Of a DNA stretch of 55,637 nt, positions 6,508-36,664 are shown piece after piece. The position numbers and the translations under genes were made by a program. The stretch comes from an uncultured Schlesneria sp. (GTDB lineage Bacteria; Planctomycetota; Planctomycetia; Planctomycetales; Planctomycetaceae). Below the pieces are notes generated by a model that saw nothing but the letters and a program-made list of their open reading frames with translations, made no database searches and had not been told where the DNA came from. The stretch spans positions 1-55,637 of the forward strand of contig CAILLA010000123.1 of the NCBI GenBank assembly GCA_903834925.1, given 5' to 3'. How positions within the stretch are numbered: position 1 is the stretch's first letter; every line of letters begins with the position of its first letter.

Positions 6508-7042
6508 CATTTTGTTCGAAATTCGCGTTGCGCTCCTCGTTTTTTAATCAAGACATATAGTGGATGACGAGATCTTCAACTCCAAATTTCCGTGGTGCTT
6601 CGTAACCGCCATTTGCAATGCACTGGGCAGACTGGATGTATTGATTGACGATCTGATTGCGCCAAGCGGATCGTGCAGCAGTTTTTAATGTAGTTCCCGT
6701 TTTCAATGGCGATGCCTTTGTTGTGACTTAATAGAAGCAACACGATGTTGCGGAAGCGGGTAGCATGCGCGTTGCTAAGACGTGTATTCGACACGCAATT
6801 CCTCATGGACGGCAAACTTTTTACTGAGTTCGGTTCGCCCTTTGATGAGAACGACACGGTGTCATCGTGTCCCGTCTCGTATCCAAGTGCCACGGCGTTA
6901 TCAATTGTCCGTTCGTGTCATTTGCCGTTCGGCAATTTCTGAACGTGCTAATCATCCTGAATTTTGATGGCGTCGACATCGCTTTTCTATTGGTGGCGAG
7001 TGTTATTTCAATGAACATGCACCTTATGATTTTTGGTTGGAA
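6508..7042. other. Gene-free stretch upstream of the ketosynthase
   Basis: About 535 bases without a convincing gene. On the minus strand, one frame between about 6715 and 6555 reads like a protein C-terminus (NQIVNQYIQSAQ, then GYEAPRKFGVEDL and a TGA). It is closed upstream by TAA at about 6730, and the adjoining minus-strand frame is also protein-like, so a decayed gene fragment is possible. Promoter elements for the downstream genes were not identified. Confidence 0.35.
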
Positions 7043-8290
7043 ATGAATTCCTGCGACCCCATCGTGATCACCGGGATTGGGCTTGCTGCTCCGAATGGCT
7101 GCTGTCGTTCGGAGTATCGCGATGCACTCCTCAAAGGACGATCAGGGGTCGTCGCCTTTGAAACACGGCACTTGGGAAGTGTACCAGCAGGGGTCTGCAA
7201 TTTTGATGAATTCCGATTTCAACGACCCGCCATGCGAAGAAAAGGAACACGAGCGGGTTCCATTGCGATTCACTGTGCAAACGAGGCAGTGAAAGATGCG
7301 GACTTGAATTGGGCGATGGTCCCTTTGGACCGCGTCGGTATCTGTTTGGGTATCACCGAACACGGGAATGTCGAAACAGAAAACCAGATCCACGAACTGG
7401 CCCAATACAACAACGACCTGGGGACGTGGTCGAATTATCACAATTCGCGAACGGTGGCCAACAATCCGGCTGGCGAAGTTTCGATCAACTTGGGAATTAC
7501 AGGGCCTCACCTGACGATCGGAGCCGCCTGCGCGGCAGGGAATGCGGGCCTGATCCACGGTGCGCAACTGTTGGCTCTTGGTGAAATCGACGTGGCCATA
7601 GCGGGCGGAGTTTCTGAAAGCATCCGCTCGTTCGGCATTTTTGCAAGCTTCCAAAGTCAACGGGCCTTAGCACGACATGCCGATCCGGCCAAGGCCTCTC
7701 GGCCGTTTGATCAACACCGCAACGGCATCGTTGTCTCCGAAGGAGGCGGCGTATTTGTGCTGGAACGTCTGTCCGATGCGAAACGCCGCGACGCCCGGAT
7801 CTATGCGGAAATCGCAGGCTATGCCATGAATTCCGATGCCAGTGACCTGGTGAACCCACTCGCAGAACGTCAGGTGCAATGTATCCAACTCGCTTTGAAA
7901 CGAGCCGGCATCGGTCCACACGAAGTGAGTTACATCGGAACGCATGCGACCGGGACCGATCGTGGGGATGCGACGGAATGCGAATCGATTCAAGCCGTCT
8001 TTGGTGATCGATCGACGCTCGCGATTACCAATACAAAAAGCCTGATTGGCCACACGATGGGGGCTGCCGGTTCGCTTGAAGCGATTGCGTTGATCTCGGC
8101 GTTTCAGGATGGTCTGGTGCATCCCACGATCAACCTTGACGAACCGGACCCACGGTGCAACCTGCCACAATTGGTGACGCGAAGGCCGCGCGAGATCGGT
8201 CGGTTTCCCTTCGGCATAGTGAACTCTTTCGGCATGTTAGGAATTAATTCGTCAGTCGTTTTGCGACGGTCGCAATGGAGTCCGTTTTGA
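7043..8290 (+). CDS. Stand-alone beta-ketoacyl-ACP synthase (KAS II/FabF-like)
   Basis: A 415-residue thiolase-fold condensing enzyme. The catalytic triad is in place: Cys163 in IGAACAAGNAG, His301 in GTHATGTDRGDATE and His337 in TKSLIGHTMGAAG, with Lys332. The Cys-His-His set means decarboxylative Claisen condensation of an acyl primer with a malonyl-ACP extender is expected. A TTG lies two codons upstream of the ATG chosen at 7043. It differs from housekeeping FabF in context: no fabD/fabG neighbours, an ACP gene 71 bases after its stop, and the UnbL/V/U cassette further on. It is a single-domain enzyme, not a fragment of a modular PKS, since the frame starts and ends normally. Confidence 0.88.
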   Translation: MNSCDPIVITGIGLAAPNGCCRSEYRDALLKGRSGVVAFETRHLGSVPAGVCNFDEFRFQRPAMRRKGTRAGSIAIHCANEAVKDADLNWAMVPLDRVGICLGITEHGNVETENQIHELAQYNNDLGTWSNYHNSRTVANNPAGEVSINLGITGPHLTIGAACAAGNAGLIHGAQLLALGEIDVAIAGGVSESIRSFGIFASFQSQRALARHADPAKASRPFDQHRNGIVVSEGGGVFVLERLSDAKRRDARIYAEIAGYAMNSDASDLVNPLAERQVQCIQLALKRAGIGPHEVSYIGTHATGTDRGDATECESIQAVFGDRSTLAITNTKSLIGHTMGAAGSLEAIALISAFQDGLVHPTINLDEPDPRCNLPQLVTRRPREIGRFPFGIVNSFGMLGINSSVVLRRSQWSPF

Positions 8291-8361
8291 CGCGATGAAA
8301 TCGATCGCGTCATCCATCTCGTACGCACTTTGCCATCGATCACCATAAGGAAGACAACATA

Positions 8362-8670
8362 ATGTCGGTTGATGTAATAAACCAGGATCGAGCGGCTCTG
8401 CGAACGGAGTTGTTGCGGATTCTGAGAGGGGTCTTACGAGACGACGTCGCAACAGACGATCTCGACGACGACCTACCGATCAGCGAACAAGTGACGATGG
8501 ACAGCATGGACTTTTTGGATTTCGTGATCGAAATCCGCAAACATTTAAGGGTCGACATCCCTGAAGAAGACTACGCGGAACTGGTCACGATTCAAGGTCT
8601 ATTAAGCTACATAACGGCACAGATTGAGGTAAGCGAATCTTCTTCACCACACACTCAAGGAGGCAACTAA
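8362..8670 (+). CDS. Acyl carrier protein
   Basis: A 102-residue protein, slightly longer than housekeeping AcpP (about 78). The phosphopantetheine attachment site is Ser48 in VTMDSMDFLDF, the DS(L/M)D motif at the start of helix II. Acidic stretches on either side (DDLDDD, IPEEDYAE) fit the ACP fold. The last 15 residues are Ser/Gly-rich and probably flexible. It lies 71 bases after the ketosynthase on the same strand and presumably carries its substrate. With the KS it supplies separately what a PKSE carries in one chain. Carrier-protein identity is secure from the motif; the partner assignment is inferred. Confidence 0.88.
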   Translation: MSVDVINQDRAALRTELLRILRGVLRDDVATDDLDDDLPISEQVTMDSMDFLDFVIEIRKHLRVDIPEEDYAELVTIQGLLSYITAQIEVSESSSPHTQGGN

Positions 8671-8919
8671 GCGTTTCACGGTAATTCTTCGAATTCTTCT
8701 GCGTCCGTTTCCGGCGTTTGCCTTCGGGCGAGCTTTTCCTCGCGTTCATTGCAAATTTGATCGTTTGTTTTGTGTTACTCGGGCGTGAATTTCAGTTTGT
8801 GGTGCCGTCGCGTTCGGTTCCATCCGACCACTCTTTCAAAGAGATGTGACGGCGATGCTTCAAATCGATTTCACGAACGTGTTGTTCCACCCCTCCTTGT
8901 TTTCTGTAAAGGGTAAAAG

Positions 8920-9678
8920 ATGGTTTTTTCAATGTGTCGTTGGTTTAAAGCTGCGCTCCTGGCTACCGGCGTCGTCTGTCTCGCATCTGCGGATGTGAAG
9001 GCTGGATCGATTACGATTAATCCTGGTTATGACGAAATGAAGACGCAAACTGCTTATTTTGTACCGCCAGCGCCACCAAATGCGTCTCCAATACCGTTCA
9101 CATCGAATCCGCTGACGAACTTCAACTTTGGCGGCTCGATTGGTAGCCAATATGTTGGCGCTACCGATACCATCATTCAACGTACTGACCCGTCGTTTAC
9201 GCTTGTAAATGACGGCGATCACCATGTTTCGGCAATAACCGTTGCAGCGATTTCACTCAAAACGCAAGACGACGCCTTGTTTGCAACGCTCGATCCTAAT
9301 TATGCGTCGACAGGTACTATTGATATTACGCGCACGAGCGATACCGGCGGTACATGGACCAATGATTTCTTTGTTCACATTGATATTCATGCGGGTTCCC
9401 CTACAGGATCAGTGGTGTACACAGACATTGTCAAGCACTTCACAGGACACGGAACTTGGGCAACAACCCCTGGGCCGTGGAATCCAGGCACGATTATCGC
9501 CGGCGTAAATCAAGATAACAATTTTTGGATTACTGGCCCTGCCTACCACGATGCGGGTGGCGGCACGGTACACGTTGTCGAGAGCATTCAATCGGTCCCT
9601 GAACCCAGTAGTGTCGCATTGCTTTTGTCTGGTGCTACGATGGTCAGCTACTTCGCGATCCGACGTAAGAAGGCATAG
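8920..9678 (+). CDS. PEP-CTERM sorting domain protein
   Basis: A 252-residue exported protein. The N-terminus is a signal peptide (basic CRW, hydrophobic AALLATGVVCLASA, cleavage near KAGS). The C-terminus has the PEP-CTERM signal: VPEPSSVAL, a hydrophobic helix and the basic tail IRRKKA. Such proteins are processed by an exosortase and delivered to the cell surface. The mature part is rich in Thr, Asp, Gly and Asn and probably beta-rich; no enzymatic motif is visible. The ATG at 8920 is used; a second ATG at 8932 would leave a shorter signal peptide. It stands between the ACP and the UnbL-like gene, 250 bases from the former and 660 from the latter, and has its own hairpin downstream. Confidence 0.85.
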   Translation: MVFSMCRWFKAALLATGVVCLASADVKAGSITINPGYDEMKTQTAYFVPPAPPNASPIPFTSNPLTNFNFGGSIGSQYVGATDTIIQRTDPSFTLVNDGDHHVSAITVAAISLKTQDDALFATLDPNYASTGTIDITRTSDTGGTWTNDFFVHIDIHAGSPTGSVVYTDIVKHFTGHGTWATTPGPWNPGTIIAGVNQDNNFWITGPAYHDAGGGTVHVVESIQSVPEPSSVALLLSGATMVSYFAIRRKKA

Positions 9679-9824
9679 GGATTAAGTAACGCCGCTTTCT
9701 GCGTGAACGAGAAAACCCAATGACTTTGGTGCATGACTTCGAATGAGCCTGATGTGCGCAGGGGTTCAATAGGGCGCTGTCTCGCGTTACGGCTTTAAAA
9801 GTATTGGCAGTCTTTCTAAACGAT

Positions 9825-9854
9825 CCGACCCGCCGTGCGCATGCGGCGGGTTGG
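9825..9854 (+). terminator. GC-rich hairpin after the PEP-CTERM gene
   Basis: CCGACCCGCCG (9825-9835) pairs with CGGCGGGTTGG (9844-9854) with one G-T pair across an 8-base loop. No pure T run follows, though the next 25 bases are T-rich. It is likely a terminator or 3'-end stabilising structure. Confidence 0.5.
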
Positions 9855-9894
9855 TTGGTAGGTTTCATTTTGTTGTGACACTGCTTCGGACTTC

Positions 9895-10150
9895 TTCGAG
9901 TTTGAAACGTGACTCATCGAGTCACGTTACAAACTCTCTTTCAAAGTAGCCATCATCGCTCCGCGTGATGAGCATGCGTCGGAAACGACTCAAGCGTTGC
10001 CTTAACATTGGAATAAATACGTCGTTTGAAATCCTTTTTTGAAAACGAGCAGATCGGAATATGACGGGTTCCCGAACAATGCTCATCACGCGGAGCGATG
10101 ATGGCTACTTTGGTCTGAAGCAACGCCACTCTAGCGTCTTTAGCGACGCA
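9895..10150 (+). repeat. Inverted-repeat element copy A (MITE-like family)
   Basis: A 33-base perfect inverted repeat, 9943-9975 against 10079-10111, each arm beginning or ending with AAAGTAGCC and holding a small hairpin with loop core CGCTCCGC. To the left is another hairpin, AACGTGACTC (9906-9915) with GAGTCACGTT (9919-9928). The same architecture recurs in reverse orientation at 32568-32803 and, with changed stem sequence, at about 31645-31855. No ORF of note lies inside. This looks like a non-autonomous mobile or structured repeat. Confidence 0.7.
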
Positions 10151-10178
10151 GTTTGTTTGCATCTGAGTTCGGTTTGCG

Positions 10179-10220
10179 CCTCGGCACTGCTTGACCGAAG
10201 ACGTTCAAGCAGTGCCGAGG
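10179..10220 (+). repeat. Perfect 16-bp hairpin upstream of the UnbL-like gene
   Basis: CCTCGGCACTGCTTGA (10179-10194) is the exact reverse complement of 10205-10220, with a 10-base loop. It sits 120 bases before the DUF1702 gene and has no T tract. It could be a repeat fragment or an RNA structure in the 5' leader of the cassette. Confidence 0.6.
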
Positions 10221-10339
10221 TGTTTCGAGGAACCAATGGTTTCTTGAGCGAAAGATGCTTCACACCGTTGCCCGGAGGGGGGCTGGGCATTTGTGCTCAA
10301 TACGTTTTCGGGCGAACAAAGGATTGAAAGACGTCGTTT

Positions 10340-11308
10340 ATGAATCTCTGGGATCTCCTTCGAAATCCTCTGTTTCACATCGACGAAAGGGAGACCACCT
10401 TTCGTCGTCGTGGTTTTCCGTCGGGTTCTCCGGTTGCTCAATCGCATCTTGAAGGGATTGGACGTTCTTTTCTGCGCGGCTATCACGGGGCGGTTGACTC
10501 GGGCATGTCGAAGTCAATGACCGATTCTCTTGCTCAGGTTGGCTCCGAATATCAAGGGTTTGCCTATGAAGGGGCGGCCATGGGCTTGGGGCTGCTTGAT
10601 GCACTTTCGTTCGGGAAAAAGTTCCGCTGGAAAGAGTTTGTCGACGGACCTGGCCAGCCGCATAAGTATGTCGTCCACGTCGGTTTGGGTTGGGTTGTGG
10701 CCCGCCTTCCCTGGTTACGATCTCGACCCGAAAAGTTCATTTCCAATTTTGACCCCCTGCTAAAATGGCTGGTTCTGGATGGTTATGGCTTTCACGAAGG
10801 CTATTTTCATTGGAAGAAGTGGGGACCCGATACCGGGCGCAGACCCAAGTTTGAGGGCTACGCGTCACGTGCGTTTGACCAGGGACTGGGGCGATGTCTC
10901 TGGTTTGTGTCGTGTGCAGACGCCGTTCGTGCGGCGGACTTGATCGAACGATTCGAACCCGATCGACAAGCGGATCTGTGGAGCGGTGTGGGTCTCGCTT
11001 GTGCATATGCCGGAAAGCCGACTGCCGAAGAAGTTGAATCTCTAATGCGCAGTGCTGGTTCACACGTTATTCATTTCCGGCAGGGGATCACCTTTGGTGC
11101 CGAGGCACGGGAATTGGCTGGCATTCCAGCCGAACACACCGAACGGACCTGCCAGATCGCCTGTGGCATGTCGGCGTCCGAGGCCGCTCGCCTGACCTAC
11201 ACCGCAATCCCGCCCACGGTCACTGACTCAAGCATCGTACCCGCATACGAAACTTGGCGATCACAAATTCGCGATCTCCTTACTGAGGGAATTCCATCAT
11301 GTTTGTAA
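10340..11308 (+). CDS. DUF1702 protein, UnbL-like enediyne cassette protein
   Basis: A 322-residue soluble protein with the conserved features of the DUF1702 family: FAYEGAAMGLGLLDAL (about 75-90), YVVHVGLGWVVARL (about 110-123), LDGYGFHEGYFHW (about 145-157), FDQGLGRCLWFV and DLWSGVGLACAYAGK (about 210-225). DUF1702 proteins are known mainly from enediyne loci, where they accompany UnbV and UnbU; their biochemical role is undefined. The stop overlaps the start of the UnbV-like gene by 10 bases, so the two are coupled. The mapping of DUF1702 to the name UnbL is from memory; membership of the enediyne cassette is clear from the gene order. Confidence 0.85.
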   Translation: MNLWDLLRNPLFHIDERETTFRRRGFPSGSPVAQSHLEGIGRSFLRGYHGAVDSGMSKSMTDSLAQVGSEYQGFAYEGAAMGLGLLDALSFGKKFRWKEFVDGPGQPHKYVVHVGLGWVVARLPWLRSRPEKFISNFDPLLKWLVLDGYGFHEGYFHWKKWGPDTGRRPKFEGYASRAFDQGLGRCLWFVSCADAVRAADLIERFEPDRQADLWSGVGLACAYAGKPTAEEVESLMRSAGSHVIHFRQGITFGAEARELAGIPAEHTERTCQIACGMSASEAARLTYTAIPPTVTDSSIVPAYETWRSQIRDLLTEGIPSCL

Positions 11309-13434
11309 AAGCTCGGGCCAGTCAGTTGGTCGCGACGGCTCTGGTTCTTGTCGCTTACTACTTCGCTCGTGAACCGCAGATCAGTTCCGTCGATCGAGAA
11401 GCGCTTTCCGTGCGATTCAAATTTCAGCGAGAAGTCGTCTCGATTGCTCCGTTCGACGCCGGGCCGCTTCGGACGACGCGAAAGGTTCATCCCAGCCTGG
11501 AACGGATTAAATCCTGGATCTCGGCCACGGGTGCGGCGGCAACGTTGGCTGATCTCGATGGTGACGGGTTCGAAAACGATCTGCTGCTCGTCGATACTCG
11601 AATCAATGAAATCGTTGTCCAACCGTGTCCTGGAACGGGCGACCGCTTCGCGCCATTCACATTGACCGCACGGGGTCTCCCCTACAATGAGGAGACGATG
11701 TCACCTACTGGATCAATTGTGGGTGATTTCAACGAAGATGGGAACGTAGACGTCCTGGTTTACTATTGGGGACGGACACCAATCCTGTTTATGCGGCAGC
11801 CGGTGTTTCCTCTAGACAAGGTCACCCCCCCTGCGAAAGAGGAAGGCACAAACAACGCGCAAATTGATAATGGGGAAAATCCTCATTTTGTGGGAAAGCC
11901 AGATCTGCAACTGCAGGATCTTTCGTTCGAGCCAAAGGAATTGCTTCCTCCTGAGCCGGGAGAGGAACCCCAGCGGTGGTTTACGCATGCCGCCACGCAG
12001 GCCGACATCGACGGCGACGGGCATCTTGATCTGATTATTGGCAATTTCTTTCAAGATGGCGCGGATATCTTGAATGTAAAGGGAACCGGCGTGGCCACCG
12101 TCATGCACGCAGGGAAGTCGAAAGCAAAAAATGGAGGCGGAGCAAAACTATTCCTTTGGCAATCTGCTCCCGCTGGCTTGCCACAATTTAAAAACCGCAG
12201 CGATGCTCTGGAACGACATTGCGGTAAAGGCTGGGTCCTGGCGGCAGGAGCGGCAGACCTCGACCTGGATGGCCTTCCCGAGATCTATCTGGCCCACGAT
12301 TTTGGTCCCGACCGTCTGCTGCACAACCGGTCGACACCGGGCGACCCCAAGTTCGAACTCTGCGAAGGTGTTCGAACATTTACAACACCAAAATCCTTTG
12401 TCCTGGGTAAGGATTCGTTCAAGGGAATGGGAATGGGGTTTGGCGACGTGAACGGTGACGGGTTGTTCGACATCTATGTCAGCAACATCGCAGACGAATG
12501 GGCCTTACAAGAGAGCCATTTCTTGTGGACCAGCACCGGTCAAATTGAAGATTTCAAACGAGGGGTCGCCCCCTATGTTCAGAACAGCGAACGCTATGGA
12601 CTTTCTCGTAGCGGCTGGGGCTGGGACAGTCGGCTGGTTGATTTTGATAACGACGGAAAACTGGAAGCAATTCAGGCGACAGGCTTTGCGAAAGGGACAA
12701 TTCCTGAGGGTGCAAAACTCTCAACGATCGACAAGGCACTCTATGACCTTGGCTTCCTCAAACATGGCATCAATCGCTGGCCGGAATTGCAGGCGCTCGG
12801 AACGACGAACGACCAATTGATTCACGATCCCACTTTCTGGCCGAAATTTCAGCCCCCGACTGCCGACCTCAGTGGGTACAACACAAATCCCTTTTATGCG
12901 AGATCCGCTTCGGGTCGTTTTGTGAACATTGCCAGTGATCTCGGAATCGGCGACGCGTTTAACACACGGGGGATCGCCGTGGCGGATGTCGATGGTGATG
13001 GCCGACTCGATTTCGTCTACGCGAACCAGTATGCACCCTCAGTCATGTTTCATAATAACAGTTCGCCCCAAAATGCCTTTTTAGGATTACACGTTTTTCT
13101 GCCACTCGATCCAGACGACAAGGGACCCTTAACCATCCAGCCAGGCCCGTCGACGAATCTGCCAAAGACTCGTCGGGCAATCGGTGCGATCGCCCGATTG
13201 AAGATGCCTGATGGAACCATCCAAATCGTGCAATCGGATGGTGGCAGTGGCCACTCGGGTCATGGCAGCCAGGCGATTCACTTTGGTCTCGGAGAACGTT
13301 CACCAGACGAACAGTTCGAAGTCGAGCTTCGTTGGCGAGCCATTGATGGGACGTTGCAAACGGCGGACAAGAAGTTCTCGCCAGGCTGGCATACAATTGT
13401 ATTTGGCACCACTAAGAAAGGAGGTGCCCAGTGA
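11299..13434 (+). CDS. UnbV-like FG-GAP/ASPIC protein
   Basis: A 711-residue protein with an N-terminal hydrophobic signal or anchor (about 8-25), then seven or so FG-GAP/VCBS blades with calcium-binding loops: DLDGDGFEND, DFNEDGNVD, DIDGDGHLD, DLDLDGLPE, DVNGDGLFD, DFDNDGKLE and DVDGDGRLD. A C-terminal ASPIC/UnbV domain follows (GAIARLKMPDG, HFGLGER). The segment VGDFNEDGNVDVLVYYWGRT is close to what I recall for enediyne UnbV proteins, rather than general FG-GAP proteins of planctomycetes. It should act outside the cytoplasm as a beta-propeller. It overlaps the DUF1702 gene upstream and shares GTGA with the UnbU-like gene downstream, so the three form one translational unit. Confidence 0.88.
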   Translation: MFVKARASQLVATALVLVAYYFAREPQISSVDREALSVRFKFQREVVSIAPFDAGPLRTTRKVHPSLERIKSWISATGAAATLADLDGDGFENDLLLVDTRINEIVVQPCPGTGDRFAPFTLTARGLPYNEETMSPTGSIVGDFNEDGNVDVLVYYWGRTPILFMRQPVFPLDKVTPPAKEEGTNNAQIDNGENPHFVGKPDLQLQDLSFEPKELLPPEPGEEPQRWFTHAATQADIDGDGHLDLIIGNFFQDGADILNVKGTGVATVMHAGKSKAKNGGGAKLFLWQSAPAGLPQFKNRSDALERHCGKGWVLAAGAADLDLDGLPEIYLAHDFGPDRLLHNRSTPGDPKFELCEGVRTFTTPKSFVLGKDSFKGMGMGFGDVNGDGLFDIYVSNIADEWALQESHFLWTSTGQIEDFKRGVAPYVQNSERYGLSRSGWGWDSRLVDFDNDGKLEAIQATGFAKGTIPEGAKLSTIDKALYDLGFLKHGINRWPELQALGTTNDQLIHDPTFWPKFQPPTADLSGYNTNPFYARSASGRFVNIASDLGIGDAFNTRGIAVADVDGDGRLDFVYANQYAPSVMFHNNSSPQNAFLGLHVFLPLDPDDKGPLTIQPGPSTNLPKTRRAIGAIARLKMPDGTIQIVQSDGGSGHSGHGSQAIHFGLGERSPDEQFEVELRWRAIDGTLQTADKKFSPGWHTIVFGTTKKGGAQ

Positions 13435-14414
13435 GCACCACATCGAATATCGCCACCGTCTTTTTGTATCCGAAACAAAGCCCCGGGCGTCGGCTGTTTG
13501 CTTTGTGGTATTTCATGATCCTGATGACCGCGTGGAATATTGCGGGACATACCTTCCTGGGGTTTGAGCAGGCGTGGGCTCATCCCGTTGTTGCTGTTCT
13601 GGCCGCTTGTGCGACGCAGCTTCTGCTGGAATGGGTTGATGCCCGCAGTCTGGGTCGAAAGCCTCGCTTCTCAGGTTCGGTCGCGAATTTCATCAATTTT
13701 CTGCCAGCGCCTGCGATCTCGGGTTTTGCTTGTGCCATGCTGCTCTATCCCAATGATCGACTCGCGCCAATCATTTTTGCCGCAGTGGTCTCGATTGCAT
13801 CCAAGGTTCTGTTACGAATTCGGTTGGCGAACGGTGCCCTGACGCACTTTCTTAATCCCTCGAATTTTGGGATCGTGTCGACGCTCTTGTTGTTTCCCTC
13901 GGTCGGTCAGGCTCCACCTTACCAGTTTACCGAGAACATCACCGGGTTCTGGCATTGGGCCTTGCCTGCCATTATCCTGGTCACGGGGATCATCGTTCAC
14001 GGCTTTGCGACCGGTCGGATCACACTTTGTCTTGCCTGGATGGTGGCATTCGTCGTGCAGGGGTTATTCCGAGCCTGGCTGGCGGGGAATAACTGGTATG
14101 TGCCTCTGATGCCGATGTCGAGCGCGGGATTCATTCTGTTTACGCTCTATATGATTCCCGATCCCGCAACGACACCGATTGCTCAAGGCCGACAAGTTCT
14201 GTTCGGTGCCTCCGTCGCATTCGCGTACGCCGTTCTTCAGTTGTTGCACGAAGTCTACGGTCTCTTCCTGGCGTTGACTCTTGTCACCGTCGTTCGTGGC
14301 CTGTTGATCGCAGTCGGGAGCCGTCAACCGGCACGGAAACCACCAACCAGTGAAAATCGCAATATGTCAGGACAGCCGAGAAAACCACAATTGGAAGCGG
14401 TTGCGGCAAGCTGA
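13431..14414 (+). CDS. UnbU-like integral membrane protein
   Basis: A 327-residue protein with eight to ten hydrophobic segments. The stretch ALTHFLNPSNFGIVSTLLLF (about 125-145) and LYMIPDPATTP (about 240-250) are the conserved spots I associate with UnbU, a family distantly related to the RnfD/NqrB membrane subunits of electron-transfer complexes. I see no SGAT-type flavin attachment motif. The start is GTG at 13431, overlapping the UnbV stop in GTGA. The C-terminal 35 residues are polar. In enediyne loci UnbU is always linked with UnbV and UnbL; electron or ion transfer at the membrane is a guess from the RnfD relationship. Confidence 0.83.
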   Translation: MSTTSNIATVFLYPKQSPGRRLFALWYFMILMTAWNIAGHTFLGFEQAWAHPVVAVLAACATQLLLEWVDARSLGRKPRFSGSVANFINFLPAPAISGFACAMLLYPNDRLAPIIFAAVVSIASKVLLRIRLANGALTHFLNPSNFGIVSTLLLFPSVGQAPPYQFTENITGFWHWALPAIILVTGIIVHGFATGRITLCLAWMVAFVVQGLFRAWLAGNNWYVPLMPMSSAGFILFTLYMIPDPATTPIAQGRQVLFGASVAFAYAVLQLLHEVYGLFLALTLVTVVRGLLIAVGSRQPARKPPTSENRNMSGQPRKPQLEAVAAS

Positions 14415-14423
14415 GGAAACCAA

Positions 14424-15344
14424 TTGAATCGATACGTCAGCCACCCGGAGATCACGTTTGAAGACACCAACCTCGTTGGTAATGTCTATTACGCAAACTT
14501 TGTGCGCTGGCAAAATGAATGTCGCGATAATTGGTTGAAAGAGACCGCTAACGACACCTACGCCGACCTCTTTCGAGGGGTCCGGCGTTTGATTGTTGCG
14601 GAGCTCGGACTGAAATTCCATGACCCGACTGGTGCCGCACTAGGTGACGCTCTCGAAGTGGAAATCGCCACCGATGCAACAATAGAGGGCTTACAAAGGC
14701 TGACGTTTGAGATTCGCAGACTTCCCAGGCCGGGATCATCCGAAGCGGCGGCGGTTCTGGTCACCGGCCATCAATGTTTCACGATTGTCGACCGTGAAAC
14801 CCAATGGGGCTTATTTCCTGCTGAGTGTGAAACGGCTGAGCCGTGCGGACCCGCCTATGTCATGGAATTTCCCGTGCCGATGACTGCTGTTCAAAAAGAC
14901 GGCCACCTCAGTGCTCTGGACCTGGTCCGCTGGCAAGGGAAATGCCGCGAACGGTTCCTGTCTGAACACGCACCAGAACTCCTGAAATCCGTGGCCGGAG
15001 GAACCTTGGCCCTGCATACCAATCAGGTTGGACTTTCCCTTGTGGATGACGCTCGCATCGCTGCATCGGACCGAATTCGTTTGAAAATGCGAATGACAGA
15101 CCTCAAGTCTCGATTAACAGTCCGATTCGATTACGAATTGACGAACGATTCGAGGGACACACCCACCGTTCACAGGATCGCTACGGGAACACAGGTCCTT
15201 TGTTGTAAACGGCAGAACGCCGAAGGCCATTTTACCGCGTGTGTATTCCCGCCCGAAATGCTTCGTGCGCTACGCCGTTTTACAGTTTCCAACGGCATAC
15301 GTTCGTGTATCGACGATTTGCTTATACACGCGGCACGCAGTTAA
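14424..15344 (+). CDS. TEBC-like thioesterase with two hotdog regions
   Basis: A 306-residue protein, about twice the usual 140-150 residues of the enediyne thioesterase TEBC (CalE7 type). The first half carries the TEBC signature ITFEDTNLVGNVYYANFVRW (10-29), followed by NECRDNWL. CalE7-type enzymes use an Asn and an Arg rather than an acidic nucleophile, and Asn20 and nearby Arg residues are present. The second half (from about residue 155) repeats the pattern in degenerate form, LSALDLVRWQGKCRERFL, without the GNVYY stretch, so it is probably structural. TEBC hydrolyses the polyene chain from the PKSE carrier domain. The start is TTG at 14424 with GAGGAAA upstream, 9 bases after the UnbU stop. 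Confidence 0.8.
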   Translation: MNRYVSHPEITFEDTNLVGNVYYANFVRWQNECRDNWLKETANDTYADLFRGVRRLIVAELGLKFHDPTGAALGDALEVEIATDATIEGLQRLTFEIRRLPRPGSSEAAAVLVTGHQCFTIVDRETQWGLFPAECETAEPCGPAYVMEFPVPMTAVQKDGHLSALDLVRWQGKCRERFLSEHAPELLKSVAGGTLALHTNQVGLSLVDDARIAASDRIRLKMRMTDLKSRLTVRFDYELTNDSRDTPTVHRIATGTQVLCCKRQNAEGHFTACVFPPEMLRALRRFTVSNGIRSCIDDLLIHAARS

Positions 15345-15718: not shown

Positions 15719-16813
15719 GTGAGCCAACTTGCCGAACTCGCCGCCAAAGCCAAAGCACAACTCGATGCCCATACCTATGAAAACGTGCAATGGCATTTCC
15801 ATGAATCGACCGGAAGCCCGTTCTGGCTCGAAAAAGCCACAACCTACAATTTTGACCCTTTAAAAGAGGTCAAATGCTTCGACGATTTGAAAAAGTTCCC
15901 GCATTTCGAAGATGACTGGCTGCGAGGTGGTCCTATCAGCCGCTGGATTCCGAAAGGGCTGGCAGGAAAACCTGCTTATGTATTTGAAACTGGCGGAACG
16001 ACTGGAATTCCGAAAAGCCGGATGGTGATCGAAGACCACTGGATCGATTACGAGAATTTCAGTGACACCCTTCCTGACGAATATTTTCCTCGTGGCGCCA
16101 ACTGGCTGATGCTTGGCCCGTCCGGTCCTCGGCGGTTGCGGTTGGCTGTCGAACATCTGGCACAGTATCGAGGCGGAATCAGTTTTTGTGTCGATCTTGA
16201 TCCCCGCTGGGTGGTCAAGCTGCTGAAAAAGGGGAAAATTAAAGAGGCCGAAGACTACAAAGAACACGTGATCGATCAGGCAGTGACGATTCTTTCGGCC
16301 AACCACAACATTCAATGTGCGTTTATGACACCAAAGCTGTTGGAAGCACTGGCGATGCGATTGCTCGACGATGGAACGAGCATCGCTGAATCGGGTATTA
16401 AAGGAATTTTCGCTGGGGGAACCGAATTCACGCCTCAATGGTATCGCACCTGTCGTGAAGAACTGCTCGGACCGGATGTCTATATCACTCCGACCTACGG
16501 CAATACGCTGATGGGCCTGGCCTGTGGCAAGCCGTTTGATCCTGCCGACAACTACAAGATCACCTACTACGCGCCGCAGCCTCGGGCGGTGATCGAGACC
16601 GTCGAGTTCAAGGATTACAATCAAGTCGTCGGTTATGGTCAGACTGGCCGGGTGAAGCTGTACACAATGACCAAAGAATTATTCATCCCCGGTTTCATGG
16701 AACGGGATGAAGGCGAACGTGAAAAGCCTCATGAAAAATACCCTTGGGATGGCATCAGCGGCACGCGACCGTTCCATGAATATGCGAAAACAACGACCGT
16801 TGGTGTTTATTGA
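15719..16813 (+). CDS. Adenylate-forming acyl ligase (PaaK/LuxE-like)
   Basis: A 364-residue member of the adenylate-forming superfamily. The AMP-binding P-loop is YVFETGGTTGIPKSRMV (about 87-103; GGTTGIPKS). A second conserved patch, IFAGGTEFTPQWY and then ITPTYGNTLMGLA, corresponds to the adenine-binding and A5 regions. It is shorter than phenylacetate-CoA ligase (about 430) and close to the length of LuxE acyl-protein synthetases (about 370). It would activate a carboxylate as acyl-AMP. The start is GTG at 15719; no ATG gives a full-length protein. The aldehyde-dehydrogenase-fold enzyme follows 99 bases later, a pairing that resembles LuxE-LuxC. The true substrate is unknown. Confidence 0.75.
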   Translation: MSQLAELAAKAKAQLDAHTYENVQWHFHESTGSPFWLEKATTYNFDPLKEVKCFDDLKKFPHFEDDWLRGGPISRWIPKGLAGKPAYVFETGGTTGIPKSRMVIEDHWIDYENFSDTLPDEYFPRGANWLMLGPSGPRRLRLAVEHLAQYRGGISFCVDLDPRWVVKLLKKGKIKEAEDYKEHVIDQAVTILSANHNIQCAFMTPKLLEALAMRLLDDGTSIAESGIKGIFAGGTEFTPQWYRTCREELLGPDVYITPTYGNTLMGLACGKPFDPADNYKITYYAPQPRAVIETVEFKDYNQVVGYGQTGRVKLYTMTKELFIPGFMERDEGEREKPHEKYPWDGISGTRPFHEYAKTTTVGVY

Positions 16814-16832
16814 TTTTTTGAAAGAGAAGAAT

Positions 16833-16868
16833 TAGGTCCTATGGGTCGTACAAGACCTATAGGACCTA
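16833..16868 (+). repeat. 15-bp hairpin between ligase and reductase genes
   Basis: TAGGTCCTATGGGTC (16833-16847) pairs with 16854-16868 through 15 positions with one G-T pair and a 6-base loop. No T run follows, so it is more likely a palindromic repeat or mRNA processing site than a terminator. Confidence 0.6.
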
Positions 16869-16912
16869 TTCTGTCGACTTTCGCCTGTGTTTACCCTACT
16901 TGAGAAATCACG

Positions 16913-18349
16913 ATGTTTGATATTCCGATTCTTCGATTTGGTCAGACTTACGAATCGATGGAAAAGCAGCCCGTTGTCCATTTCGACACGGGTGAACCGG
17001 TCGCTCAGTTACATCAGGCAACTGGGGCGATGGTGAAGCTGGACTTGAAGAAGTCCCAGAAAGCTCGCGATGCGCTGCGAGCTGTTCCGATTGCCAAGCT
17101 GATCGACATTTGCAAAGCGGCCGCACGGATGTACCTGGAAGAGACGCTTCCATGCGGTAATGGTTCGTTGTCACCCGCAGAATTTTGCCGTCTGCAATCG
17201 GCAACGACCGGGCTGCCCGAGAATATGTGCGCCGCAAACATGCGGAAGAACGCTTTTGTGCTTGGTCATATGGACGAAGTACTTGATGCACTGACTCGGG
17301 GATTGCCTTATGAAATCCTTGAAAAAGGGTATGGAAAAGAATCTCGCGGAGTAATGGTTTCTTATCAGGCGACGACACCTGTGTTCGGGATGGTTTTGCC
17401 GAATAATTCGCCCGGGGTGCATACTTTGTGGCTTCCGGCAATTCCGATGCAGATCGGTTTGTGCATCAAGCCAGGTTCGCAAGAGTTCTGGACGCCATAC
17501 CGAATCACAGAAGCTTTCTTTAAAGCGGGTTTACCGAGAGAAGCGATTTCCGTGTATCCCGGCGGACACGATGTCGGTGGGGCCGTCATGACCGATTGCC
17601 AGCGGGCGATGATCTTCGGTGGCCAGACGACTGTTGATCAACACGCTGGAAATCCAAAAATCTCGGTTCATGGGCCCGGTTTTTCAAAAGTAATTCTCGG
17701 TGACGATGTGGTTGATCGCTGGGAAGACTACCTGGATCTGATGGTTGACAGCGTGTTTGCGAACAGCGGACGAAGTTGTATCAACGCCAGCGGGATCTGG
17801 GCATCAAGACACACTCGCGAGATCGCTGATGCGATCTCTCAACGGCTTGGACCAGTCGTACCGCTGCCGCCGAACGACCCGAAATCCTCGTTGGCCGCAT
17901 TTACAACTCCGGGTGCCGCCGAAGCGATGAATGCTCAAATCGACGAAGGCTGTCAGGCAGATGGCGTGACGGAAATGACGGCAAAGTATCGAAATGGACC
18001 ACGTCTGGAGAAACGAGAACGCTGCGACTATTTGCGTCCGACCGTCGTTCATTGCACGGGGCCTGACGTGCCGTTGGCCAATACCGAATACATGTTCCCG
18101 TTCGTGTCTGTGGTTGAGTGTCCGCAGAACAAGATGATTGCTCAAATTAAACAGACGCTGGTTGGTACGGCGTTGACTGACGACGCGAAGTTCAAGCAGC
18201 AGTTGCTCGACGCGACAAATATCGATCGATTGAATATCGGGCCGGTGAAGACGGTTCAATTGAACTGGCTGCAACCGCACGAAGGAAATATTGTTGATTT
18301 TCTGTTCCGGAACCGAGCATTTCAGGATACGCCTCCGGCGGCTCACTGA
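16913..18349 (+). CDS. Aldehyde-dehydrogenase-fold enzyme, possible acyl reductase
   Basis: A 478-residue protein of the aldehyde dehydrogenase superfamily. The catalytic cysteine is Cys289 in FANSGRSCINAS, and the cofactor-binding region is around VFGMVLPNNSPGVHTLW (157-173) with KPGSQEFWTPY. The usual general-base glutamate motif is not obvious, as in CoA-dependent reductases and LuxC proteins. The direction could be acyl-CoA or acyl-AMP reduction to aldehyde, or aldehyde oxidation. Its place directly after the adenylating ligase favours reduction of an activated acid. The start is ATG at 16913, shortly after a hairpin at 16833-16868. Confidence 0.75.
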   Translation: MFDIPILRFGQTYESMEKQPVVHFDTGEPVAQLHQATGAMVKLDLKKSQKARDALRAVPIAKLIDICKAAARMYLEETLPCGNGSLSPAEFCRLQSATTGLPENMCAANMRKNAFVLGHMDEVLDALTRGLPYEILEKGYGKESRGVMVSYQATTPVFGMVLPNNSPGVHTLWLPAIPMQIGLCIKPGSQEFWTPYRITEAFFKAGLPREAISVYPGGHDVGGAVMTDCQRAMIFGGQTTVDQHAGNPKISVHGPGFSKVILGDDVVDRWEDYLDLMVDSVFANSGRSCINASGIWASRHTREIADAISQRLGPVVPLPPNDPKSSLAAFTTPGAAEAMNAQIDEGCQADGVTEMTAKYRNGPRLEKRERCDYLRPTVVHCTGPDVPLANTEYMFPFVSVVECPQNKMIAQIKQTLVGTALTDDAKFKQQLLDATNIDRLNIGPVKTVQLNWLQPHEGNIVDFLFRNRAFQDTPPAAH

Positions 18350-21994: not shown

Positions 21995-22249
21995 GTTAAC
22001 CGTCCTTCAACGAATCTACGACCAAATTGAACCGATATGTTAAAGGGACGGTTCCGACTCGACAATCGAGTTCACCAAAACTCTCAGGTTGATCACATTT
22101 TTCTTCGGTTTGCAGCGTCTGAACACCGGTGCCAAACCAAAAAAAAGGATGATCAGAACAATTCGGGGTTTGAGAGTCGCTCGAAATCCATTTCGACGTT
22201 AATCTTCAGCAAAATCGGTTTCCACGTATACAGATTCTGGAACTTGCTC

Positions 22250-23473
22250 GTGACTCAGTCGAAAGCCTCCGCCCCTGACAAAGTAGATCCTGGTTCTTCG
22301 GAACTGACTCCTCGTCTTAACTTCGCACTAAGCGTGGCACGAGAAGCCAGCGAGTTGATTCTCAAATATTACCAGACGGCGGATCTCGCGGTCGAACGCA
22401 AGGGTGACGCCAGCCCTGTGACCGAAGCGGACAGGGGTGCGGAACTGCTGATTCGCGAGCGATTAGCTGCTTCATTCCCTCACGATGCAATTCTCGGTGA
22501 AGAATTTCCTGATCAACCCGGAACGACCGGATTTCGCTGGATTCTTGATCCCATCGATGGAACCAAATCCTTCATTCATGGCGTTCCGCTGTTTGGGACA
22601 TTAATCGGCGTTGAATACAACATGCGATGCGTAATTGGCGTCTGCCGATTTCCAGCCTTGAATGAAGTCGTTTATGCGGCACGAGGAAGCGGTGCATGGT
22701 GGCAAATTGGTAATCTCGAACCTCGTCGTGCCCGCGTTGCAGCAACAACAAAACTGGAAGAATCGACGTTCTGCACGACGAATGTCACTCGATGGCAAAA
22801 GATCAATCGTTGGACGGAACTCGAAACACTGTTGAATTCTGTCCATCTGGCACGTGGCTGGGGTGACTGTTTCGGGCATATGATGGTTGCTACCGGCCGA
22901 GCCGAACTGATGATCGACCCGGCGATGAATCCCTGGGATGCTGCGGCTCTATTACCAATCGTCGAAGAGGCTGGAGGACATTTCGTCGATTGGAGTGGAA
23001 AGTCGACAATTTACGGTGGAAATGGGTTATCAGTCGTACCCGGTTTAAAAGACAAAATCCTTGGAATTCTGAAACCGACGTTTGAGATTGATGGTGCGAA
23101 CTTCACTACGCTGGAAGGGTTCTATGATGAAATTGAGCGGGTTTTGATCCCAGGAAGGGCATGGGGTCGCAATCTCGACGCCTTCAACGACATTCTTCGA
23201 GGTGGAATGGCAACGCCTGATAACGGATTCGTGCTTCGATGGAAGAATTCGGATCAATCACGCGTTCGTCTCGGCTTTGCCGAGACCGTTCGCCAACTTG
23301 AGCACCGTCTTTCAACAGCCCACAAATCGAACCGGACATCCATTGAACATGACATTAAACAGGCGAAATCGGAACATGGATCAACGGTTTTTGACTGGCT
23401 GATCAAGTTGATCAAGGATCATGGTACCTCAGGCGAGGAATCCAGCGATCAGGTTGATTTGATTTTGGAATAG
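22250..23473 (+). CDS. Histidinol/inositol-phosphatase-like enzyme fused to a barstar domain
   Basis: A 407-residue fusion. Residues 20-265 are an inositol monophosphatase-family domain with its metal motifs: DASPVTEADRGAE (53-65), GEEF (83-86), WILDPIDGTKSF (97-108) and PWDAAALLPIVEEAGG (228-243); the closest subgroup appears to be HisN-type histidinol-phosphatase. From about 277 the chain continues into FEIDGANFTTLEGFYDEIERVLI and WGRNLDAFNDILRGG, the signature of barstar, the barnase inhibitor. The open frame extends upstream to 22037, but homology starts well after the GTG at 22250, so that start is preferred. No nuclease gene is adjacent. The phosphatase half looks catalytically complete. 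Confidence 0.83.
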   Translation: MTQSKASAPDKVDPGSSELTPRLNFALSVAREASELILKYYQTADLAVERKGDASPVTEADRGAELLIRERLAASFPHDAILGEEFPDQPGTTGFRWILDPIDGTKSFIHGVPLFGTLIGVEYNMRCVIGVCRFPALNEVVYAARGSGAWWQIGNLEPRRARVAATTKLEESTFCTTNVTRWQKINRWTELETLLNSVHLARGWGDCFGHMMVATGRAELMIDPAMNPWDAAALLPIVEEAGGHFVDWSGKSTIYGGNGLSVVPGLKDKILGILKPTFEIDGANFTTLEGFYDEIERVLIPGRAWGRNLDAFNDILRGGMATPDNGFVLRWKNSDQSRVRLGFAETVRQLEHRLSTAHKSNRTSIEHDIKQAKSEHGSTVFDWLIKLIKDHGTSGEESSDQVDLILE

Positions 23474-33154: not shown

Positions 33155-35092
33155 CTACCTGCTTTTTCCTTGGCCTCCGGCGGTTGGCTCAGCCGAACTC
33201 AGACAGACGCGGAAGCCCAGGTTGTTGTTCCGGTTCGACGGCTCGCGCCTGCTGCGAAACGCCGCCCGGCAGCTCGCAGCGGCGAAGCTCCAGCTGCCGC
33301 CCCGAATCACCCGGTTCGAGCCTTGAGGCGGTCCCTCCGGATCAACGACAGGTCCAGTTGGATATTTGCCATACAGATCCTGACACCATTCCCAGACGTT
33401 TCCGTGCATGTCGTGCAGACCCCAGGCGTTCGGTTTTTTCGTCCCAACTGGTTGCGTTTGATCGTTGCTGTTCGCGTCAAACCATGCGTAATCACCTAAC
33501 AGCGACTCGTCGTCGCCAAAGCAATAGGCATGTTCGCTGCCAGCTCGGCAGGCGTATTCCCACTCCGCTTCCGTCGGCAGTCGACAGCGTGCCCATTGGC
33601 AATATGCCTGTGCATCGTCCCAACTCACCCCCACCACGGGTTGCTCGGGCTGATTAAACCGACGATCATCCCAGTACTTCGGTGGTGTGACCTTCATAAT
33701 CCTCTTGCCGCCTGCACTCGATGTCGACTTGAGAAACAATTCGTATTGGGCATTTGTCACAGGATATTTCGCTACCCAGAACGGGGACGTGAGGCGAAAC
33801 GTGTGTTTCACATTGTCGCCCATCTCGAACGTGCCAGCGGGAATTTCGATGAACGTGATTCCCGTTCGTTCATCGACGCGGATTTGTGATCCGCCGTCAG
33901 TGAATAAGACGCCCAATGTACTCAAGACTTCTCGAGCATATCCGTCTGTTTCGGTGTTTGGGGCCATCGCCATCAGCCGACGACAGATTTGTTCCAGCTC
34001 AGAACGGTCCTTCGGCAACAACTCATTAGCACGACCGCGTAACAGCCGAAGAATTCCTGCAATTAGCCTCGGTGATAACGGGCGTTGCCAAAATTGCCGG
34101 ACGACTTCAAACAAGTTTGCCGGTTTCCGATTGCTAATCGGTGCCAGGAATGGTTCCGCGACAAAGTAAAGCGATTCGTTCAGGCAGCGATCAGCCAGGT
34201 CGGGGTTCGACTCAACCAGTCCTGTCGCCACCATCTCGGTGAAGAATCCTTTGCAGTACTCCTTCGAACGACGCAAGGACAAGAGCGCCACTTCGTGCCA
34301 CCAGCTTTCGGACGCACGCTTTGCCACTTCCTTGGCCCGATTCTCACGCGCGGCGTAATCCGCCGCGAGATATTCCTGGAACGTCAAATGCAGAAATCCG
34401 CATCGACCCTCACCATCACCTGTCATCGCCAGAATGCCGAACTCGTTCCGCATCCGATCGATAAACGCCGCTCCGTTTCGGCCCAATCCGGCACTCGCCG
34501 AAACGTCCGCAAGTCCACGCTCCGCCTCGATCGCCAGTTCCGCTAACGTTGCCGATGTCCGGTTCTGTTCCTGATGCATCCACCAGGCAATCCGCGCTAA
34601 CACCGCTTGAGCCGCATCGGCGTCATATGTCGGGTACAGATCGCGTCGCCAATGATCCAGTAACACGCGGATGCAATGCGCGTAAAGTTCCGCGCGACCC
34701 GTTGGCAGTTTTTTATCTTTTTGAAAGACGATGCACAGAATTGTCAGCAACAAGGGGTTGGTGGCGAGCTCGCGCATTCGCCCGATCTGGTATTCCGATT
34801 TTTCGAGGATCGCAAGCAGGTCGCCACTATCAGCAGCGGCATTTTCGTCAGCCTCTGGACCTGGACCCTTTAACTTGCCGTACGCCGCTTTGAACCAGCA
34901 AATGATGAATCTTTTGACGTGGTCGTTATCGAGCGGACGTACATGGAACTCGACAAACGCCGGTCCCAAAGAAACACCGTCACGAAAATATCCCTGAAAT
35001 CGCGATGTCACCAAAAACCAATCGTTTACTCGGTCTTTGATCGCGTCTCGAATCCATTCGGCAGCGACCTTTCTCGCTTCGGGATCGACCAC
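33155..35092 (-). CDS. C-terminal part of an interrupted TIR-NACHT protein: NACHT remainder plus FGE-sulfatase domain
   Basis: This frame continues directly, in phase, from the TAA at 35093-35095 and begins with a GTG. It holds the rest of the NACHT module (VVDPEARKVAAEWI; WFLVTSRFQGY, a sensor-like motif; NPLLLTILCIVF; RAELYAHCIRVLLDHW), a helical region, then a formylglycine-generating-enzyme/C-type lectin-like domain from about 400 (FIEIPAGTFEMGD, ITNAQYE-like VTNAQYELFL, LPTEAEWEYACRAG, WGLHDMHGNVWEW, RVIRGGSW, NRNNNLGFRVC). Without the stop it would form one protein of about 1,000 residues with the upstream frame. Whether the GTG is used for reinitiation is not known. The domain end resembles the variable region of diversity-generating retroelement targets. 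Confidence 0.75.
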   Translation of the reverse strand: MVDPEARKVAAEWIRDAIKDRVNDWFLVTSRFQGYFRDGVSLGPAFVEFHVRPLDNDHVKRFIICWFKAAYGKLKGPGPEADENAAADSGDLLAILEKSEYQIGRMRELATNPLLLTILCIVFQKDKKLPTGRAELYAHCIRVLLDHWRRDLYPTYDADAAQAVLARIAWWMHQEQNRTSATLAELAIEAERGLADVSASAGLGRNGAAFIDRMRNEFGILAMTGDGEGRCGFLHLTFQEYLAADYAARENRAKEVAKRASESWWHEVALLSLRRSKEYCKGFFTEMVATGLVESNPDLADRCLNESLYFVAEPFLAPISNRKPANLFEVVRQFWQRPLSPRLIAGILRLLRGRANELLPKDRSELEQICRRLMAMAPNTETDGYAREVLSTLGVLFTDGGSQIRVDERTGITFIEIPAGTFEMGDNVKHTFRLTSPFWVAKYPVTNAQYELFLKSTSSAGGKRIMKVTPPKYWDDRRFNQPEQPVVGVSWDDAQAYCQWARCRLPTEAEWEYACRAGSEHAYCFGDDESLLGDYAWFDANSNDQTQPVGTKKPNAWGLHDMHGNVWEWCQDLYGKYPTGPVVDPEGPPQGSNRVIRGGSWSFAAASCRAAFRSRREPSNRNNNLGFRVCLSSAEPTAGGQGKSR

Positions 35093-36163
35093 TTAGTCCA
35101 GCCCGTCCAGAATCCATAACAGTCCGGTGGTTCCAGCCCACAGCATCATGCCTGGTGATTGAACCTCTTTGGCTACGTGATCGCTGTGAGTCTCTGCAAT
35201 CAGGAAAATACACAGTCCATCGTTGCGTCCCAGCATTTCATTGGTCAGCCGCCGAAACCGTAAAAAAACGGGCGTGATCCCTGTCGGCAGGCCGAGTTCC
35301 TCTGGCTTGGTTTGGCCACTGGCAAGTTGCCAGGCGATTTGCCGTGCGCCCGTCGTTTTGCCTGACCCTGGTTCACCCAACAGGATAACGCCTCGTTGCT
35401 TACGTCGTTTCGCGCACTCGAAGACATGCCTCAGTTCGACAGATTGTTCGAACTCAGCACTTCCGTCCTGGAATCGATCGGCGTGCCGTAATTCGATTGA
35501 CTGCTTAAGCGTCGTCTGCAAAGGGATAAACGCTTCCGAGATCGGCAATTCGATCTGCAAATGCAGTCCCATCCCAAGCAATTTGAGATGAGCTGTATCA
35601 GCCGCCAAACGGACAAGGTATTCACGGATGCTGTCCGACGATGGCACAATTTTTATTTGCACGCCAACTTCCGGATCAGGTTTCGCTCGCAGATCCGTAC
35701 ATTTTGCGCGAAGCCGTTTAGCAAGTTCTTCGAAATCGTAATTGCAGAGGTCCGCACGGAATACGACAGCCTGTTTCGGGAAAAGATCCTTCAACCCGTG
35801 GCTCGCAAGCCACTCCTCCGATGGCATCTGCGCGCCATCCAAGAGAACCGGAATAATGAACTTGTTGTTTTGAAGTGCGAGCGCAATCTCTCGACGAACC
35901 CAATCGTTTGGGTCATCTAGGCGAGGATGTCCTTCTAATTTGCCCTCTTCGAACGCGATGAGCTTCCAGCGTTTTCCAATGACCACCAGCATTGCGCAGC
36001 AGTCGAGGACATTTTTTTCGATGTCAGAAGGAAAGTGCTCGCCCCCTTTAATGCTGTTTTTGTCGCGGAATATAGTATTACTACCAAACTCCGTATCCAG
36101 CATTGTCTTGAGCAACGCCACCATTTGGTTCGAGTCATCAATGCGATAGTTGATGAAAATCAT
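35093..36163 (-). CDS. N-terminal part of an interrupted TIR-NACHT protein
   Basis: 356 residues from ATG 36163 to TAA 35093; a TTG at 36214 would add 17 residues, but the TIR domain starts exactly at MIFINYRIDDSNQM. TIR domain about 1-140, with the probable NADase glutamate in DWVRREIALAL (Glu92). The NACHT Walker A is LLGEPGSGKTT (about 261-271). The frame ends at LLWILDGLD, where NACHT proteins normally read LDGLDEV; the glutamate codon GAA would become TAA by a single base change. TIR-STAND proteins of this kind are typically anti-phage or stress sensors. As read, it lacks part of Walker B, so it is either a decaying gene, a split pair or an assembly error. Confidence 0.75.
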   Translation of the reverse strand: MIFINYRIDDSNQMVALLKTMLDTEFGSNTIFRDKNSIKGGEHFPSDIEKNVLDCCAMLVVIGKRWKLIAFEEGKLEGHPRLDDPNDWVRREIALALQNNKFIIPVLLDGAQMPSEEWLASHGLKDLFPKQAVVFRADLCNYDFEELAKRLRAKCTDLRAKPDPEVGVQIKIVPSSDSIREYLVRLAADTAHLKLLGMGLHLQIELPISEAFIPLQTTLKQSIELRHADRFQDGSAEFEQSVELRHVFECAKRRKQRGVILLGEPGSGKTTGARQIAWQLASGQTKPEELGLPTGITPVFLRFRRLTNEMLGRNDGLCIFLIAETHSDHVAKEVQSPGMMLWAGTTGLLWILDGLD

Positions 36164-36664
36164 GGGACGATCAATGCTCGGAAACGGAAATGTTGGCCGA
36201 CGATCATGTCGCAAAGGACCGGGAAACGATTTTCAACATACCGACCAAGGTCAAACAAGGCTACTCGTCCGCACAGCGGGCGAACAATTCTGAAAACATG
36301 ACATAGATGCTTAAAGTGCCCGTAGCATGGGCTTTAGCCCGTGCGCCCCGTGTGTTGCCATCAAAAGAATCGCGTAATCAAGTCTCGGCGTCATGCGTCG
36401 AAGTATTCGTGATGAGAATCAAAGTCGAAAACTTCGATTGAAAACGGGGTCGCTTATGAATTGAAGCGTAACTCGCGTTTTGAGTCTAAACGGCCGTATC
36501 CCGGAATGATTTCGGGAACGATCGCGTGGCCAATTTCTTGCGATTTGGATTCCCAAAACATCGATTTTTTAGGGTTCGTTTTCTCACATTCTGTTTTAAG
36601 ATATACACGGATGGAATGCGAATTTTTTCTGAAACGCAAAGACTTGCACGGGCTAAAGCCCATG
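36164..36664. other. Intergenic region with an inverted-repeat element
   Basis: The 5' region of the TIR gene and the 3' end of the coiled-coil gene enclose the element bounded by the arms at 36322-36344 and 36646-36668. The about 300-base interior has open frames on both strands but none with family resemblance or a ribosome site. Confidence 0.5.

Follow-up and report, generated by a model that had tools for sequence, protein, structure and literature searches.

An enediyne-type accessory cassette with a stand-alone ketosynthase and acyl carrier protein, and no detected enediyne polyketide synthase, in a Schlesneria genome

The enediyne polyketide synthase (PKS) cassette is given as the gene set E3/E4/E5/E/E10 in a passage of PMC5181780, and with the same composition in a passage of PMC8788690 that also mentions Methylotuvimicrobium; E is the iterative enediyne polyketide synthase, PKSE. 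As E3, E4 and E5 are known in these passages as a set with PKSE, their own reactions are hard to isolate. Phyla with an enediyne ketosynthase (KS) are listed in PMC10308959, and planctomycetes are absent from those shown there; the heptaene is treated in a part of PMC8725005, and the terms DUF1702 and UnbV occur in parts of PMC7692728 and PMC3909097. Of the open-licence papers that our literature searches listed, none dealt, by its title or the opening of its abstract, with PKSE-free cassettes or the PEP-CTERM proteins of enediyne loci. Here, we describe a locus in an uncultured Schlesneria sp. in which relatives of E3, E4, E5 and E10 lie downstream of a stand-alone KS and a stand-alone acyl carrier protein (ACP), in a draft genome with no detected PKSE. 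The window, by which we mean the whole stretch of DNA analysed, comprises 55,637 nucleotides of contig CAILLA010000123.1 (C123) from assembly GCA_903834925.1 (genome G000; 9.02 Mb, 307 contigs, 99.99% complete).

We refer to the DUF1702 protein as L, the FG-GAP/UnbV protein as V, the UnbU-like protein as U and the thioesterase as TE. In our judgement, there is a little better than an even chance that these four form a portable redox module in the membrane, acting on chains bound to ACP, which is uncoupled from PKSE and fed here by a captured KS-ACP pair.

The locus consists of seven plus-strand genes in the open reading frame list, spanning 7037-15344 (Table 1). Its last four genes are tightly coupled, with a 10-base overlap between L and V, a 4-base overlap between V and U and then a 9-base gap before TE, exactly as an earlier note on this DNA had described. 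The KS and ACP reported upstream on the same strand in that note are also there, with the KS triad intact at Cys163-His301-His337 when counted from the ATG start (the TTG start gives 165, 303 and 339). The active serine of ACP is Ser48, again as described. Two features had been missed: the PEP-CTERM gene between ACP and DUF1702, and the composition of TE, which has two tandem TEBC-like domains. Set against the enediyne PKS cassette, the window holds E3/DUF1702, E4/UnbV-ASPIC with FG-GAP repeats, E5/UnbU and the E10 thioesterase, with L, V, U and TE as the respective homologues, and the gene order matches the L-V-U-(PKSE)-TE of PKSE-bearing planctomycetes (e.g. L007, L064). It differs in that E has not been detected in the genome, TE is duplicated, KS and ACP lie upstream and a PEP-CTERM gene adjoins the cassette, the last of these being found also at some PKSE loci.

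Table 1. Genes of the cassette locus in the window, and cassette loci that are bordered by a PEP-CTERM protein
Feature	Position	Strand	Family or evidence
KS, stand-alone beta-ketoacyl-ACP synthase, FabF-like	7037 (TTG) or 7043 (ATG)-8290	+	PF00109/PF02801
ACP, stand-alone acyl carrier protein, Ser48	8362-8670	+	PF00550
PEP-CTERM protein, predicted exported, cassette-associated family	8920-9678	+	PF07589 22.1 bits (cut-off 20.7); TIGR02595 21.7 (cut-off 16)
L, DUF1702 (UnbL/E3-like)	10340-11308	+	PF08012 347.7 bits
V, FG-GAP/UnbV-ASPIC (E4-like), hydrophobic N-terminus	11299-13434	+	PF13517, PF01839, PF07593
U, UnbU/E5-like membrane protein, predicted RnfD/NqrB fold	13431-14414	+	no Pfam family
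TE, tandem double-hotdog thioesterase, enediyne TEBC/E10 type	14424-15344	+	PF13279; PDB matches
PEP-CTERM-bordered cassette loci	L007, L011, L012, L015, L016, L064, L065, L068, L069, L162-L164, L166; window 8920-9678

By their sequences, L, V, U and TE are genuinely related to the accessory genes of enediyne cassettes, as had been proposed; the Pfam matches, the PDB matches of TE, the identity of U to other U proteins and the V tree all point this way. L has an all-helical predicted structure (pLDDT, the predicted local distance difference test score, 90.6) with no PDB match at an expectation (E) value <= 0.001, and its DGxGFH motif is kept in 31 of 32 aligned L rows, the row of G506 having a gap at this position. 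V carries a hydrophobic N-terminus, a putative membrane anchor judged by eye from the sequence, and groups in the tree among PKSE-linked V proteins. U has no Pfam match at E <= 0.001; its identity to eight U proteins from other loci is 40-77%, and to those of seven loci from PKSE-holding genomes 40-54%. Its predicted structure adopts the RnfD/NqrB fold, but identity to RnfD/NqrB subunits is at most 17%. In the PDB, TE matches best the ACP-acting enediyne thioesterases 4i4j (an ACP-polyene thioesterase), DynE7 and CalE7; together with thioesterases 5vpj and 9ccr these account for six of its seven matches. The N-terminal half of TE retains TNLVGNVYY, which the C-terminal half lacks, although it retains RWQGKCRE.

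The earlier note allowed that a PKSE could lie elsewhere in the genome, and a whole-genome search of the G000 draft found none: PKSE is absent beside the cassette, and the genome yields partial matches only (best E 7.1e-64 at 31%). There are 13 KS-domain matches genome-wide in G000, and four large ones (on C109, C55, C14 and C209) are type I PKS, 27-36% identical to PKSE over partial length. When 13 genomes were searched with PKSE, the query reached E = 0 in six that have a PKSE locus (G070, G076, G091, G160, G173, G188), whereas the seven others (G000, G014, G059, G354, G378, G395, G402) gave partial matches only (best E 1.7e-71, in G059), comparable to those that ordinary PKS give in the PKSE genomes. 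No PKSE was found in six further genomes with an L/V/U set (G506, G508, G515, G519, G520, G944). In total, 13 Planctomycetota genomes, G000 and 12 others, hold the cassette or part of it and none has a detected PKSE, which supports the occurrence of L/V/U apart from PKSE. Within this count, the G515 contig starts inside V, and G402 has its U on a separate contig and no TE seen; G061 was left out: its V-U pair is the last thing on a contig, L was not seen and the search gave no PKSE. Separate loci are picked up by such searches, as a control shows: G407, G410 and G638 each have a PKSE, or much of one, away from L/V/U.

Trees of V and U, with the proteins of the V-U-only loci of G377 and G491 as outgroup, place most of these genomes together. 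V unites ten (G000, G014, G378, G395, G354, G506, G515, G508, G520, G519) with support of 100/99, U recovers the same clade at 100/99 from nine rows (G519 left out), and the clade was also recovered in L, V and U in smaller first trees. It covers three genera in two families, and the double TE is present in all ten members; G059 and G944 have a single TE. G059 and G402 join the clade at lower support (V 85/95; U 80/77, G059 only). Twelve PKSE-free genomes and G061 sit with the loci of Sulfopaludibacter (L015) and Methylotuvimicrobium (L016) at 100/99 in V and 100/100 in U. By V and U, no PKSE-bearing loci are closer to the PKSE-free group than these two; they too adjoin a PEP-CTERM gene, but they retain PKSE and have a single TE. 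A single clade of all PKSE-free rows was rejected, with G944 falling elsewhere (approximately unbiased test, p 1.7e-7 for V and 8e-52 for U). With PKSE assumed to be ancestral, this split of the PKSE-free rows makes two or more separate losses of PKSE probable. The trees favour loss over the alternative named in the earlier note, that a PKSE had never evolved from the discrete KS and ACP.

DUF1702 was found in 6 of 99 relatives and in 14 of 397 class genomes, one a fragment, and U in 6/170 family genomes, 9/241 genomes of G354's family and 4/392 of the phylum, counts which take in PKSE-bearing G490 and G638 and V-U-only G377 and G491. The V-U pairs of G377 and G491 (L168 9579-12525, L169 1571-4458) have no adjacent L, TE or PKSE, are 31-37% identical to those of the window and lie near kinase/AAA/TPR genes; from these pairs, V-U may be usable on its own. 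G944 (L172 7487-14709) has a second, independent PKSE-free L-V-U-TE set, with an MMPL-family transporter directly after it.

In 14 genomes from three phyla, PKSE-bearing or not, the cassette is bordered by an exosortase-sorted PEP-CTERM protein; that of the window has the C-terminal sorting signal (Table 1). Nine of the genomes are PKSE-free (G000, G014, G059, G402, G354, G506, G508, G519, G520) and five are PKSE-bearing (G070, G160, G173, Sulfopaludibacter, Methylotuvimicrobium). Relatives of the window's protein lie beside the cassette in G014, G070, G160 and G173, and the match holds with both ends removed. A custom pattern scan over 752 kb of loci returned 11 PEP-CTERM-like proteins, 10 of them bordering the cassette (nine upstream of L, with ACP between in G014, and one past TE on the opposite strand), and none in 12 KS loci without the cassette (203 kb). 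Five more border the cassette in G506, G508 (two), G519 and G520. No such neighbour was seen in G378, G395, G944, the short G515 contig or several PKSE loci (e.g. G076, G091, Calothrix). Core alignments separate one subfamily of G000, G014, G070, G160, G173 and Sulfopaludibacter from another of G354 and Methylotuvimicrobium (E about 7e-29), to which G059 and G402 belong weakly; G508, G519 and G520 encode proteins that match that of the window (E 1e-9 to 4e-23).

The KS has FabF as its best NCBIfam match, at 314.6 bits, below the cut-off of 493.75. A KS with Cys-His-His and a discrete ACP is a feature of type II PKS; no chain length factor is adjacent, and this KS is the single KS match on C123. 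Elsewhere in the genome (G000:C281:60165-62322; L034, L053), two adjacent KS genes have an arrangement like that of a KS and chain length factor pair. KS-ACP was seen beside the cassette in only two of the 13 PKSE-free genomes, G000 and G014, the latter judged to be a Schlesneria metagenome-assembled genome, whose KS and ACP are 82% and 61% identical to those of the window. In G014, the genes run KS, PEP-CTERM, ACP, L, V, U, TE, with ACP and PEP-CTERM swapped relative to the window, and the ACP directly precedes DUF1702, its frame overlapping that of L by up to 8 bases. Beyond the seven genes, the window and the 20-kb G014 stretch have in common a distant pyrroloquinoline quinone (PQQ) match (25%) and a PSCyt/PSD1 gene; in the window this gene lies 34 kb downstream, whereas in G014 it precedes KS by 3 kb.

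In Planctomycetia, KS-ACP recurs with flavin adenine dinucleotide (FAD)-dependent oxidoreductases, and sometimes with a short-chain dehydrogenase/reductase (L133, L137, L115-L117, L135, L136); of 12 KS loci without the cassette, 10 have an adjacent ACP and seven a member of the FAD oxidoreductase family. The KS and ACP of this set are 58-66% and 42-54% identical to the window's, but that oxidoreductase was not found in the window's genome, where KS-ACP lies by L/V/U/TE instead. Across the genus, seven genomes were tested (G000, G014 and five further congeners) and none gave the FAD oxidoreductase; G059, G395, G402 and G354 have it at 52-63%, while G378 has a 24% match only. The KS orthologue occurs in two of 14 tested genomes of the genus, exactly those with the cassette (Fisher p 0.011; G004 was not listed, and the two positives may share one event), and the KS of G000 and G014 have a long stem of their own, 0.91 changes per site. 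As the KS of congeners occurs only with the cassette and the FAD oxidoreductase is missing, the cassette seems to have captured the KS-ACP pair in this genus. The earlier idea that a discrete KS and ACP take the place of PKSE finds narrow support, within one genus; it does not carry further, the KS family being common without the cassette, and conservation of the pair with the cassette in relatives likewise holds inside the genus and fails outside it.

In the reading that we favour, an enediyne accessory cassette of L, V, U and TE would have outlived its polyketide synthase. U would sit in the membrane, V would be an anchored propeller on the outside and L a helical, soluble protein; L/V/U would most likely oxidise a conjugated or fatty acyl chain carried on ACP, and TE would release the product. 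In the window's genus, the captured KS and ACP would build the chain, helped by the general reductases and dehydratases of type II systems; other genera would obtain it from a KS-ACP pair or a fatty acid synthase encoded at another place in the genome. The PEP-CTERM protein, predicted to be exported, may bind or carry the product. A bolder version, which we consider unlikely, makes L/V/U/TE self-sufficient, turning any type II ACP-bound chain into a polyyne that is passed to an exported PEP-CTERM binder, and so giving enediyne-like or polyyne lipids without an iterative PKS. Cryptic halogenation is known for the enediyne cassette, and polyyne formation might possibly proceed by this route. PKSE-free cassettes, apparently of at least two origins and kept across genera, are natural systems for testing the substrate and reaction of E3/E4/E5 alone, and the PEP-CTERM neighbour and the predicted fold of U offer two more handles on location and chemistry.

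Several points weigh against the captured-pair module. The ApbE flavinylation motif [S/T]GA[S/T] (given in a passage of PMC8238504), a mark of RnfD/NqrB, is missing from all 19 U sequences, so that a bound flavin in U is unsupported by sequence. In the window, ACP and L are separated by ~1.7 kb because the PEP-CTERM gene sits between them, and in the 11 remaining PKSE-free genomes, several of whose contigs are short, no KS-ACP was seen next to the cassette. The KS orthologue occurs in 194 of 397 class genomes (E <= 1e-85), mostly without DUF1702. Its presence in 7/7 PKSE-free and 0/6 PKSE genomes (there <=39% identical) is confounded by descent, as all six belong to family f2, from which no genome appears in the list of positives. 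The genomes are also drafts, with completeness from 80% (G506) to 99.99% (G000).

Some of these points suit another account, to which we give appreciable but minor weight, in which KS-ACP is a mere neighbour: the PKSE-free cassette would use fatty acid synthase chains, and the pair would serve the widespread planctomycete KS-ACP pathway. The abundance of the KS orthologue, the cassette-less KS loci with their ACP and FAD oxidoreductase and the 11 genomes just mentioned are what this account would predict, but it sits badly with the missing oxidoreductase and cassette-restricted KS of the window's genus, with the G014 ACP directly before DUF1702 and with the long KS stem. It is a good deal less probable that the true partner is a different PKS, encoded at another site in the genome and acting in trans. 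G000 does have the type I KS genes of C109, C55, C14 and C209 and the KS pair of C281, and PKSE, or much of it, lies apart from L/V/U in the three control genomes; however, the four type I regions resemble PKSE only distantly and in part, and no type I KS was found in 7/13 PKSE-free genomes (G395, G402, G506, G508, G515, G519, G520), as their listed KS matches lie in frames of <=518 amino acids (at E <= 1e-20 for G506, G508, G515, G519 and G520; among the matches listed for G395 and G402). We regard as very improbable that the cassette is the decaying remnant of a lost enediyne cluster. PKSE is gone, U of G519 has an in-frame stop and the gap of G506 falls on DGxGFH, but no break was seen within contig reach in 8/10 genomes of the clade, across its genera and families; U proteins of the clade remain 65-82% identical to the window's, and the motif of L and the duplication of TE are kept as described above.

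Outside the seven genes, AMP-ligase-like and aldehyde dehydrogenase-like genes lie directly downstream of the cassette (window 15719-18349) and have no counterpart in the G014 stretch. At 22037-23473, a single frame combines a barstar domain with one of the inositol monophosphatase family. On the minus strand at 33155-36214, the frames 35093-36214 (TIR-NACHT) and 33155-35092 (FGE-sulfatase domain) abut in the same reading frame, with one TAA between them.

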